A DNA stretch of 9,966 bases. Source: an uncultured Eubacteriales bacterium. GTDB lineage: Bacteria > Bacillota_A > Clostridia > Oscillospirales > Oscillospiraceae. The stretch is taken from NCBI GenBank assembly GCA_949742895.1, contig CATJRT010000420.1:1-9966 (forward strand). The letters run 5' to 3'. The position numbers and the translations under genes are program-made. Shown piece by piece: positions 438 through 3,072 of the stretch. Under the pieces are notes generated by a model. It was not told the origin of the DNA and did no database searches. It saw only the letters and a program-made list of their open reading frames with translations. The number at the start of each line of letters is the position of its first letter. Position 1 is the stretch's first letter.

Positions 438-572
438 CAATTTTAGGTAGTTGATAGCTGCCAGACCGGCTTCCTCCAAAAGCGGCAAATCTAAAGGCCA
501 AAAAACCTATTTTCTGGAAATCGCAACCATAGCCAGATACAGCATTTTCAGCAAACTGTCGCTCATCTACCT

Positions 573-621
573 GCAATGGGCCGTTATCCACAGTGGATAA
601 CGGCCCATTGCGCTTATTTTT
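573..621 (+). terminator. Long perfect inverted repeat with T-tract between convergent genes; contains a DnaA-box sequence
   Basis: Bases 573-590 and 594-611 are an exact inverted repeat (18-bp arms, 3-base loop). Reading + the stem is followed by GCTTATTTTT, so it can terminate rightward read-through before it becomes antisense to the methyltransferase. The T-tract is made from the last codons and stop of that minus-strand gene. Reading - the hairpin starts 2 bases after the stop but has no T-tract, so there it would act as a 3' end stabiliser at most. Bases 584-592 read TTATCCACA, a perfect DnaA-box consensus; the mirror copy has one mismatch. Confidence 0.6.
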
Positions 622-1372
622 CAGCAATAATCAGATAACGATGAATCGTGCCTTCAATCCTTCCATTCCGATCAATCATATCCTGCATTTTCAACAGCCG
701 ATCAAAACATTTATCCACCGAAAATCCGGGGAATTCCCACTCGATGATATGGGCAAACCATACAAACGCCCCTATATCATAAAATTTGATGGGACGATAC
801 GCTTCGTCTGACTTGATAATCTTAAATCCGGCAGCTTCAAAATTTTTGCGCTGCTTCTCAAGCGTCAAATGCGGAAAAGGCTTGTATGTGCCGGGCAGCA
901 CCATTTCGACTAAATCCCTGTCGTTATTCCCGCCCACCTGTTCTGTAATAAACATACCGTTTTGACGCAGCAGTCTGAATGTTTCTCTTGCATCAAAGCT
1001 GCCGTGCCGGTTCAAAACCAGGTCAAACGCCTCATCTTCAAAAGGAATCTCAGCTGGATTATTACATTCCTTGAAGTTGATCCCCAACGGCAACAGCTTT
1101 TCCGTACACAGCTTAACATTTGGCGGATAGCCCTCCGTTGCGGATGTTTTGTCATATGGATGATGCAAGGACAGCAAAAACTCGCCGCCTCCCGTATCAT
1201 AATCCATAATATCCATGTCGCGTTTCAAATAGCGTCCAACTAACTTTCCATAGTTCCAGGGCAGGTCGTTTTCCTCTTCATATCTTCCTCGAATATGTGA
1301 AAAATCCCAGCCGCGAATATATGCCGCTTGCTCCTCCTGCTTCCAGAGGGTTCTCAAATAGCTGCTGTTCAT
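614..1372 (-). CDS. Class I SAM-dependent methyltransferase
   Basis: A 252-residue protein with a Rossmann-type methyltransferase core. MDYDTGGGEF (56-65) is motif I, the SAM-binding glycine loop. ATEG (78-81) gives the acidic residue at the end of strand 2. IPFEDEAFDLVLNRH (109-123) is the motif II/post-I region, and RLLRQNGMFITEQVGG (133-148) is the typical LRPGG-like strand. The C-terminal ~100 residues, rich in aromatic residues, probably form the substrate cap. The substrate cannot be read from the sequence; small molecule, antibiotic and RNA all remain possible. The start ATG at 1372 has GAAAGGA 10 bases upstream. The gene is visibly poorer in GC than all other genes in the window, which suggests acquisition by transfer. 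It is transcribed alone and has an unusually structured leader (see 1373-1567). Confidence 0.85.
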   Translation of the reverse strand: MNSSYLRTLWKQEEQAAYIRGWDFSHIRGRYEEENDLPWNYGKLVGRYLKRDMDIMDYDTGGGEFLLSLHHPYDKTSATEGYPPNVKLCTEKLLPLGINFKECNNPAEIPFEDEAFDLVLNRHGSFDARETFRLLRQNGMFITEQVGGNNDRDLVEMVLPGTYKPFPHLTLEKQRKNFEAAGFKIIKSDEAYRPIKFYDIGAFVWFAHIIEWEFPGFSVDKCFDRLLKMQDMIDRNGRIEGTIHRYLIIAEK

Positions 1373-1382
1373 AAAACTGCGT

Positions 1383-1389
1383 TCCTTTC
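1383..1389 (-). promoter_or_regulatory. Ribosome binding site of the methyltransferase
   Basis: On the minus strand GAAAGGA lies 10 bases before ATG 1372. It is weaker than the AGGAGG in front of the leader ORF and lies downstream of a T6 tract (1399-1394). Confidence 0.5.
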
Positions 1390-1413
1390 ATTTAAAAAAT
1401 TGCTTTCATAACA

Positions 1414-1485
1414 GGTGCAGTCCCTGACAACATAGAATCATCATTGTCCCCGGTACAATCTGTTGTCAGTTTTTAGAACTGCACC
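1414..1485 (-). promoter_or_regulatory. Nested three-stem leader hairpin (putative attenuator)
   Basis: Three nested perfect inverted repeats share one centre: outer GGTGCAGT/ACTGCACC (1478-1485 with 1414-1421), middle CTGACAACA/TGTTGTCAG (1461-1469 with 1424-1432), inner ATTGT/ACAAT (1455-1459 with 1443-1447). The 5' outer arm consists of the last sense codons of the leader ORF, so a ribosome at the end of that ORF would prevent the outer stem. A competing small hairpin, CAGTT/AACTG, can form across the leader stop codon. A T6 tract (1399-1394 on the minus strand) lies 14 bases after the outer stem. That is farther than in a standard terminator, so whether control acts on transcription, translation or RNA stability is open. 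Confidence 0.6.
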
Positions 1486-1505
1486 GGGCGCTTAATTCGT
1501 TTCAT
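1473..1505 (-). CDS. Leader peptide MKRIKRPVQF upstream of the methyltransferase
   Basis: A 10-codon ORF, ATG 1505 to TAA 1473, with a perfect AGGAGG at 1520-1515, 9 bases before the ATG. This is the best Shine-Dalgarno in the methyltransferase transcript. The peptide is basic (K2, R3, K5, R6) and ends R-P-V-Q-F before the stop. Its codons GTG CAG T form the 5' outer arm of the downstream nested hairpin. An alternative ATG at 1510 gives only Met-Arg-stop, overlapping the ATGA of the longer frame. The size, position and overlap with a hairpin arm match the general layout of ribosome-stalling leader peptides, such as those upstream of erm rRNA methylase genes. I do not recognise this exact peptide, and translation is inferred. 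Confidence 0.55.
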   Translation of the reverse strand: MKRIKRPVQF

Positions 1506-1538
1506 CGCATTTAACCTCCTGACTTTGTAATGCTTACA

Positions 1539-1567
1539 ATTTTACCACAGCGATTTATCCAATTCAA
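1539..1567 (-). promoter_or_regulatory. Sigma-A promoter with extended -10 driving the methyltransferase leader
   Basis: On the minus strand TTGAAT (1567-1562) is separated by exactly 17 bases from TAAAAT (1544-1539), which is preceded by TGG (an extended -10 TGn). Transcription would start near 1532, giving a leader of roughly 160 bases before the methyltransferase ATG. That length has room for the leader ORF and nested hairpin. Confidence 0.7.
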
Positions 1568-1646
1568 TACGGTTTTGTAAACTGTCGCGTCAGCCCGTTT
1601 GGGTCCTATCTGTCTTTTTTACAAAACAAAGCAGGTTTGTTATAAC

Positions 1647-1666
1647 TCAAAGGTTTAAACCTTTGA
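1647..1666. promoter_or_regulatory. 20-bp perfect palindrome, probable operator
   Basis: TCAAAGGTTTAAACCTTTGA is an exact 20-bp palindrome (centre 1656/1657) with no loop, typical of a binding site for a dimeric regulator. It lies 36 bases upstream of the -10 box of the flavodoxin gene and about 80 bases upstream of the methyltransferase -35 box, in the divergent region. No regulator gene is in the window. Confidence 0.55.
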
Positions 1667-1736: not shown

Positions 1737-2438
1737 ATGAAAAAAATAGCTGCATTTGTGCTGGGCCTCACCATGGCCCTAAGCCTCGCCGCCTGCGGAC
1801 AGCCGGGGACCTCGGCCTCTCAGGCCGTTCCATCCGATCCGCCGGAGGAAACACAAGCTGTATCCACCCCAATCCCTGAAGCGCCAGACACATCTGCACC
1901 TGAGCCGGAAAACACCGCTGATTTGGAAACCGGGGCTGGCGGTAAGACCTTGGTTGTCTGCTTCTCTGCCACCGGCAGCACTCAGAGGGTGGCCGGATAC
2001 ATTGCCAGCGCCGCAGAGGCTGACCAATTTGAGCTGGTTCCTGCCGAACCATACACCTCTGCCGACCTGAGCTGGACTACGGAGGGCAGCCGGGTCAATT
2101 TGGAGCACAATGACGAGTCCCTGCAAGACGTGAAGCTGGTGGCCAATACCGTGGACAACTGGGAGGATTACGACACAGTTTTCGTCGGATATCCTATCTG
2201 GTGGGGCATCGCGGCATGGCCGGTGAACGACTTTGTGAAAAACAACGACTTCACTGGCAAGACAGTGATCCCCTTCTGCACCTCCTCCAGCTCTGGCCTG
2301 GGTGAAAGCGGTGAGCTGCTGGCCCAGATGGCCGAAACTGGGGACTGGCAGACCGGGATGCGGTTCTCCTCCAGTGCTTCTGAGGACGATGTGGCCGGGT
2401 GGGTCAACGCCCTGGGCCGCGGGGCTGCGGGGGAATGA
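1737..2438 (+). CDS. Lipoprotein flavodoxin (Flavodoxin_4-type)
   Basis: A 233-residue protein. Residues 1-20 are a lipoprotein signal peptide (KK, hydrophobic stretch, lipobox LAAC with Cys20). A low-complexity Pro/Glu/Thr/Ser linker (about 21-68) follows, then a flavodoxin domain. CFSATGSTQRVA (75-86) is the FMN phosphate loop, GYPIWWGIAAWP (151-162) is the first flavin-contact loop, and CTSSSSGLGES (181-191) is the second. It should bind FMN and be anchored to the outer face of the membrane as a single-electron or hydride carrier. The partner is unknown. ATG 1737 is chosen over GTG 1728 because AGGGAG (1721-1726) is 10 bases from the ATG but would leave only 1 base before the GTG. The stop is 4 bases before the ATG of the broken gene that follows, so the two were once an operon. 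Confidence 0.88.
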   Translation: MKKIAAFVLGLTMALSLAACGQPGTSASQAVPSDPPEETQAVSTPIPEAPDTSAPEPENTADLETGAGGKTLVVCFSATGSTQRVAGYIASAAEADQFELVPAEPYTSADLSWTTEGSRVNLEHNDESLQDVKLVANTVDNWEDYDTVFVGYPIWWGIAAWPVNDFVKNNDFTGKTVIPFCTSSSSGLGESGELLAQMAETGDWQTGMRFSSSASEDDVAGWVNALGRGAAGE

Positions 2439-2442
2439 TACC

Positions 2443-2590
2443 ATGAACAGACCTTATGTGATCTGCCATATGCTCACTTCCCTGGATGGAAAGATCGACG
2501 GCGCTTTTATGTCTGCCCCGGAGGCCGGGCCTATCGCGGCAGAATATGGGCGGATGCGGAGCATCTTCGAGTGTCAAGCCGCTGTCCGGC
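2443..2590 (+). pseudogene. RibD/DHFR-family reductase, N-terminal fragment only
   Basis: From ATG 2443 the frame gives MNRPYVICHMLTSLDGKIDG and on to EYGRMRSIFE at about residue 43. This is the NADPH-binding start of the RibD C-terminal/dihydrofolate-reductase-like family (pattern PYV-H--TSLDGKI-G). Such proteins are usually around 200 residues or more. Here the frame runs out at TAA 2602-2604 after CQAAVRLHCL, and from about 2571-2590 the DNA codes for a different protein in another frame. A deletion has therefore joined this gene to the next. The ATG is 4 bases after the flavodoxin stop, with a weak GGGGGAA upstream, so the fragment may still be translated by coupling. No catalytic function is expected. 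Confidence 0.75.
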
Positions 2591-3072
2591 TGCATTGCCT
2601 GTAAGACCTGTGTGAGCAAGCACAAGTACGTTTTTGACAATGCAGTCAACGAATTTTTGGATATCGCTGGGGATTATGACGGCTTCGTGTTCGGCACCCC
2701 CGTCCACTGGGGCGGGGCTTCCGGCAGCATGACCTCCTTTGTGGACCGGGCACTTTACGCCGACGTGTGCGGCAGCGGAGAGCGCTTCCTGCTCAAGCCT
2801 GCGGCGGCGGTGATCTCCGCCCGGCGGGCGGGAACCACCGCCACCTGGGATCAGGTCAACAAGTATTTTGCCCTAATGCAGATTCCCGATACTGGAACAT
2901 CGTCCACGGGACCACACCGGAGCAGGTCCGTCAAGACTTAGAGGGGATGCAGACCATGCGCATCCTGGGTAAGAACATGGCCTTTTTCCTGAAATGCAAA
3001 GAGGCCGGGCTGGCGGCGGGCCTCCCTCTTCCCCAGCGAAAGGCCATCACCTTCACCAACTTCATCCGGTAA
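2571..3072 (+). pseudogene. NAD(P)H-dependent FMN reductase / flavodoxin-family remnant, 5'-deleted and frameshifted
   Basis: In the +2486 frame the sequence from 2571 reads SVKPLSGCIACKTC and continues to NKYFALMQIP near 2888. It contains the flavin-site loop VFGTPVHWGGASGSM (from ~2688) and the Cys-rich GCIACKTC typical of the multimeric iron-sulfur/FMN reductase family. The frame then breaks. The natural continuation, RYWNIVHGTTPEQVRQDLEG through to KAITFTNFIR and the stop at 3072, lies in another frame from about 2890. The N-terminal part (Rossmann strand 1 and FMN phosphate loop, which should precede GCIACKTC) is missing, lost in the fusion to the RibD-like fragment. Two separate lesions make this a pseudogene. 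Its former role was probably flavin reduction alongside the lipoprotein flavodoxin. Confidence 0.85.

Follow-up and report, generated by a model that had tools for sequence, protein, structure and literature searches.

Layout of the locus

The window, by which we mean the whole stretch of 9,966 nucleotides that was analysed, carries a gene for a class I SAM-dependent methyltransferase (MT) of 252 amino acids at 614..1372 on the minus strand, with its ATG at 1372, as assigned from the open reading frame (ORF) and a structure model. The whole feature described here lies on the minus strand, which the preliminary description of this DNA had left unstated. Read in that direction it begins with a promoter found by the promoter scan (TTGAAT-17-TAAAAT with a TG before the -10, 1539..1567), followed by the leader Shine-Dalgarno (SD) sequence AGGAGG (1515..1520) and a leader ORF of ten codons and a stop (1473..1505) encoding MKRIKRPVQF, both read directly from the DNA. 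Paired arms, a T6 tract at 1399-1394, about 14 nt past the outer stem, and the MT complete the layout, which is as the preliminary description had it. The promoter is weak when taken alone, as the scan gives 3 promoter-like sites across 421 bases where shuffles average 0.8. Just past the MT stop, at 573-611, there is a perfect inverted repeat with arms of 19 bp and a single central base. Judged by eye it is followed on the plus strand by a T-rich stretch, and it is possibly the terminator of the plus-strand gene or an insertion boundary. Elsewhere in the window, at 2302-3072, an FMN-reductase-like coding stretch runs over different frames with a short other-frame stretch before it, and looks decayed or misassembled.

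The arms all lie on the minus strand. Segment 1 (1478..1488) is the arm within the leader, and covariation, inverted repeats and complementarity assign it two possible partners, segment 2 (1449..1459) and segment 3 (1414..1421). Segment 1b (1461..1469) is the partner of segment 3a (1424..1432), an assignment that rests on covariation and a perfect inverted repeat of 9 nt (1461-1469/1424-1432). Segment 4 (1373..1385), which comprises the GGA of the MT SD and the spacer, is complementary to segment 3 according to folding and duplex energies. The preliminary description had seen here three concentric, perfect stems. Two of these repeats are indeed perfect, the 9-nt one just mentioned and the 8-nt outer stem (1478-1485/1414-1421). 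The innermost, ATTGT/ACAAT, read by eye, does exist, but the conserved pairing is a different one, of 9 nt and 89% complementary, between 1480-1488 and 1449-1457, and it competes with the outer stem for the leader arm. The stems are alternatives that share the leader arm and are not nested.

Folded by itself, the window copy gives no significant structure (z -1.18, with 24 of 200 shuffles folding as well or better); the significance of the structure comes from comparison with relatives. GC content is 39-47% across the MT and leader (window 450-1650, in 300-base steps) and about 55-62% in most flanking steps. Because its GC lies below that of the flanks, the MT with its leader is probably foreign, a horizontally acquired cassette.

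Conservation of the leader frame and of two competing pairings

Three covariance models (R1, R2 and R3) were built in turn from the element, and alignment A8 holds 53 copies, the window and 52 loci. Excluded before any counts were made were two weak R1 matches (L024, which has no core, and L025, a six-error match), loci that are the same places as others (L003, L004, L016, L017, L061), near copies of L032 (L033, L034) and wrong-strand matches in L007, L008, L015 and L027.

All 53 copies keep the frame of the conserved codons open and have a start codon in it four or more codons upstream, as against 1/53 for each of the other two frames; among 47 representatives the same counts are 47, 1 and 1. 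The comparison shows a leader ORF kept in a conserved frame and, judged from that pattern, probably translated, as in a translational attenuator. What is kept of the peptide is the core N-[CY]-[SP]-V-Q-[LF], of which the window has the version K-R-P-V-Q-F, and not MKRIKRPVQF as a whole, whose conservation the preliminary description had thought worth looking for. Numbering from the S/P codon, N stands at -2 in 39 of the 53 copies and C or Y at -1 in 45; then come S (34) or P (16), V (49), Q (47) and L (27) or F (14). The Asn at -2 is kept through AAC and AAT, varying mainly at the third base, which argues for selection on the peptide, and the S, V and Q codons change partly synonymously in distant copies. 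All 33 Gly codons at -3 are GGT, and 29 of the 30 Arg codons at -4 are CGA, so that part of the conservation is at the codon or nucleotide level. A CGA stall codon at -4 was rejected as a universal feature, being present in 29 of the 53 copies. The leader stop falls within 24 nt of the S codon in 40/53 and the other 13 leaders extend further; in L067 the Q position is a stop codon.

Both pairings of the leader arm covary. For the 1:2 helix, 95.5% of 582 cells in A8 are paired and double changes occur in 7 of 11 pairs (24 cells), while slid controls reach at most 47% and, in shuffles that ignore phylogeny, 0/500 reach any measure except for 6/500 on further pair types. For 1:3 together with 1b:3a, 93.6% of 896 cells are paired and double changes occur in 14 of 17 pairs (58 cells), a count that is favoured by A8 having been fitted to the 1:3 structure, whereas the 1:2 helix was in no model; slides reach at most 54%, and 0/500 shuffles, again ignoring phylogeny, reach any measure. 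In the MAFFT alignments A1 (9 rows) and A2 (15 rows), which are not structure-fitted, at most 19/500 shuffles do so on all measures but one, the exception being further pair types, which stand out in none of the four counts. On this comparative evidence the leader arm is shown to have two mutually exclusive pairings, 1:2 and 1:3 with 1b:3a. The leader frame and covarying stems are conserved upstream of MT orthologues, as the preliminary description had required of its interpretation.

The complementarity of segment 3 to segment 4, that is, to the SD and spacer of the gene, is moderately supported. Segment 3 forms a better duplex with its own ribosome binding site (RBS) than with those of other copies (mean -8.84 vs -7.91 kcal/mol; 0/2000 permutations, which ignore phylogeny, so that relatedness confounds the comparison), and its own RBS is better than the row mean in only 27 of 45 copies.

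Distribution and downstream genes

The covariance models find the element in Clostridia, in genomes that we infer to be Paenibacillaceae (the family of G894) and on plasmids of Lactobacillaceae. R1 matched in 10/391 genomes, two of the ten being later dropped, R2 in 6/398 and 2/6, and R3 in 21/197, 3/22, 4/32, 8/329, 5/28 and 1/1. The genome sets overlap, and these counts are lower bounds because a scan of more than 40 genomes evaluates no more than 9-19 candidates in each. A contig scan gave two MT relatives, one with a leader (L001) and one without (L002), and in the family of L001 the MT is present at E<=1e-100 in 12 of 299 genomes, with a leader of the same layout in 8/12 and none in 4/12. 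R2 had no match at E<=1 in L002, L005, L006, L010 and L014, nor in L031, L035 and L036, where MT relatives are present. The MT of L022 is identical to that of Tissierella praeacuta. On plasmids, 23 records match the leader region of L032, all from Lactobacillaceae; in the three viewed (L032, L033, L034) the leader and MT lie downstream of a replication initiator gene, and the annotation splits the MT of L032 in two and covers that of L034 only in part. In genome G1268 the element occurs twice, once before an MFS gene and once before an MT remnant (L060, L064).

Across the 53 copies the best downstream match is an MT in 46, an MFS protein in 4, an ABC protein in 2 and a radical-SAM protein in 1. 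The MT count includes the remnants or shortened copies L019, L048 and L064; L020 and L032 also look broken, and the ABC gene behind L067 is fragmented. The MT of the window scores 20.1 bits against Pfam Methyltransf_11, just below the cut-off of 21.2. Among the NCBIfam matches listed, no curated cut-off is reached by the MT, the radical-SAM protein, the MFS protein of L023 or the ABC protein of L030, and no Erm model appears for the MT. Against the RlmA equivalog NF008300 (the G745 enzyme) it scores 13.6 bits, with a cut-off of 303. Its structure model (pLDDT 91) has a class I fold, and RlmA(I) is the first of the Foldseek matches listed, among which many methyltransferases of small molecules have similar scores. 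Nothing recognised as a known resistance gene turned up behind the copies of the element, and plasmid searches with the leader of the window, with a consensus of 56 nt and with one leader of 23 aa likewise gave none.

Other assignments were considered and rejected. A known riboswitch or RNA family was dismissed on finding no Rfam 15 match, either at the gathering score over the window or at E<=1 over 1340-1600. Anti-phage defence was discarded after neither the MT nor the radical-SAM protein matched PADLOC. A viral or phage origin was likewise set aside, the MT being unmatched in a phage collection and two leader patterns occurring in 0 stretches of viral contigs. In the openly licensed literature searched, the leader fragments occurred in no paper, and among the titles and abstract openings shown for related attenuators none describes the element.

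A predicted switch and competing explanations

Our results suggest, with about an even chance of being right, that the element represents a family of translational attenuators not described before, in which early arrest on the leader by a ribosome-targeting antibiotic exposes the SD of genes that counteract it. In the closed state, composed of 1:2 and 3:4, the SD would be hidden; in the open state, composed of 1:3 and 1b:3a, it would be freer, and the leader's own arm, segment 1, would be the anti-sequestor. When the states were forced in 21 copies (1:2 for closed, 1:3 with 1b:3a for open), their predicted energies were about equal (-48.7 vs -48.3 kcal/mol on average); the open state was the more stable in 9/21, with the SD more open in 16/21 and the RBS in 18/21. 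Covariation and folding together give alternative structures of which one is predicted to hide the SD, as in a translational attenuator, the SD pairing itself being moderately supported.

The direction of the switch is predicted from equilibrium folding, which ignores kinetics, pseudoknots and translation dynamics. A ribosome footprint of -14..+16 was masked codon by codon in 45 of the 53 copies, those in which a gene start was found (it was not in L019, L020, L027, L032, L048, L050, L064 and L067; the same 45 serve for the 3:4 duplex), and P-site positions are given relative to the S/P codon. A ribosome on the last codons of the leader would cover segment 1 and leave the SD hidden: the expected 3:4 pairing rises from 4.64 bp without a ribosome to a maximum of 7.4-7.6 bp when the P site holds S, V or Q (7.62 at V). 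A ribosome arrested early, its P site about five codons before S/P, would break 1:2 at its foot, and the freed segment 1 would capture segment 3 and expose the SD. At P=-5 (41 copies) the model gives 1.52 bp for 3:4, 0.29 for 1:2 and 6.95 for 1:3; 3:4 is lower there than at P=+1 in 40/41 and the RBS more open in 38/41. The contrast with the ribosome-free RNA is smaller, P=-5 reducing 3:4 by more than 1 bp in only 20/41, many copies being already open, and the V codon in the P site raising it by more than 1 bp in 24/45, with the RBS less open in 13/45 and more open in 9/45. A smaller footprint shifts the open position to -4 (21 copies). In the window the predicted arrest would be at codon 2, placing R3 (CGA) in the A site, and 3:4 drops there from 8.9 to 1.1; in most copies it would be at codon 3-4, and in L039-L042 the start assigned by script at -4 would disallow a pause at -5, and a start at -7 is also present. 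With segment 2 shuffled the model is open without a ribosome (3:4 of 1.73), and with segment 1 shuffled it stays closed in all three conditions (6.8-7.6). Shuffling segment 3 gives a chance level of about 3 bp for 3:4, against the native 4.64.

The preliminary description had proposed the logic of erm genes, in which a drug-stalled ribosome near the leader end frees the gene. Such a stall on the last codons (S-V-Q-F) could free the MT SD through kinetics or contacts that folding misses, and we regard this as unlikely, if the strongest of the alternatives. Peptide conservation is strongest at N-[CY]-[SP]-V-Q, as would be expected of an arrest site, and known leaders stall near their end; yxjB of Bacillus subtilis, which encodes RlmAII, is inducible by tylosin, which stalls the ribosome at R-Y-R at the leader end (PMC6851288). 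However, it is precisely there that the modelled ribosome maximises 3:4, the opposite of what that logic needs, and L067 has its stop where Q would stand. A 2:3 anti-sequestor is also absent in folding, with 0.0 expected pairs with the ribosome on S-V-Q and 3:4 up to 7.0 (21 copies, equilibrium folding). The preliminary interpretation is thus partly supported. A slightly less probable reading is that the leader senses general ribosome traffic or reinitiation, so that any drop in leader translation would let the RNA re-equilibrate towards the open state. The near-equal energies of the two states and the variable leader length and stop position (40 short, 13 long) are consistent with it, as is the similar layout of the tet(L) leader, for which there is a reinitiation model. 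It leaves unexplained the conserved residues and codons just before segment 1.

Transcription attenuation, with 1:3 as terminator, 1:2 as antiterminator and a ribosome on segment 1 preventing termination, is improbable even for a subset of copies, and is unlikely in the window. It draws on U runs within 3 nt of segment 3 in L063 (T8) and L030 (T6), on T5 in L070, and on the copies that, no more than 12 nt from segment 3, contain an 8-base stretch with at least 6 T (6/53) or at least 5 T (16/53). However, the linker background is 8% and 18%, which means no general enrichment at the stricter level, and such a run behind the hairpin is missing from the window and from most copies. A terminator scan of the window, L030 and L070 gave none, but it accepts loops of 3-8 only and is blind to the 1:3 hairpin because that loop is too large. 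Some copies, such as L063 and L030, may also act by transcription termination. That the element is hairpin-rich sequence inherited with the gene and has no regulatory role is very improbable: the insignificant single-sequence fold and the decay of several downstream genes would agree with it, but covariation, frame conservation and the association with four gene families speak against it.

The attenuator of ermC switches between 1:2/3:4 and 2:3. Our element resembles those of ermC and ermB in its leader ORF, alternative pairings and SD sequestration, and differs from ermC in alternating 1:2/3:4 with 1:3, without 2:3; its wiring is thus unlike that of ermC. The tet(L) leader (PMC9387203; L037 1801-1860, L038 120-179) has its 1:2 arm over R-V-Q-L codons where the element has it over S-V-Q-L, and its SD is complementary to a downstream arm as judged by eye, a likeness that may be convergence: R2 has no match at E<=10 in these two loci, and Tet_res_leader (PF08050), the family of the tet(L) and tet(K) leaders, matches 0/6 element leaders of at least 20 aa, against 1.2e-15 for the tet(L) positive control, the 10-aa window leader being too short. 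Likeness to yxjB lies in a short leader peptide, an SD-sequestering structure, a Gram-positive methyltransferase gene and an Arg codon in the A site of the stalled ribosome, the stall here being a predicted one. In contrast to the leader arm that serves here as the putative anti-sequestor, yxjB combines its SD-sequestering hairpin with a NusA-dependent terminator and has its stall at the last residues (R-Y-R), its enzyme is RlmAII, and the available part of its description (PMC6851288) identifies no overlapping antiterminator.

We infer antibiotic induction, the drug, the MT substrate and the resistance function. The signal would be an antibiotic (a macrolide, a lincosamide or similar) that targets the ribosome and halts synthesis once 2-4 residues have been joined, and the controlled genes for a methyltransferase, an MFS pump, an ABC exporter and a radical-SAM enzyme would counter the drug. 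Somewhat short of an even chance, in our estimate, is the broader proposal of a new transferable family of drug-sensing leader RNAs, with their own coding arm as anti-sequestor, that have been placed in front of four or more unrelated gene families, both across Bacillota and on plasmids, and so mark hidden protection genes against one class of ribosome antibiotics. Attenuator leaders have repeatedly led to resistance genes, and this element is widespread, lies outside Rfam and can be searched with one covariance model. The uncharacterised methyltransferases, pumps and radical-SAM enzyme behind it would be candidates for resistance to ribosome-targeting drugs with a shared inducer. As to the drug, the available part of PMC8298421 gives K/R-x-K/R as a macrolide and ketolide arrest motif and MRLR as its short form. 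In likeness to ErmDL, this motif, absent from the other 46 leaders including that of the window, has its x at the predicted stall P site in 7 of the 53, a placement that is suggestive of macrolides, though not generally.
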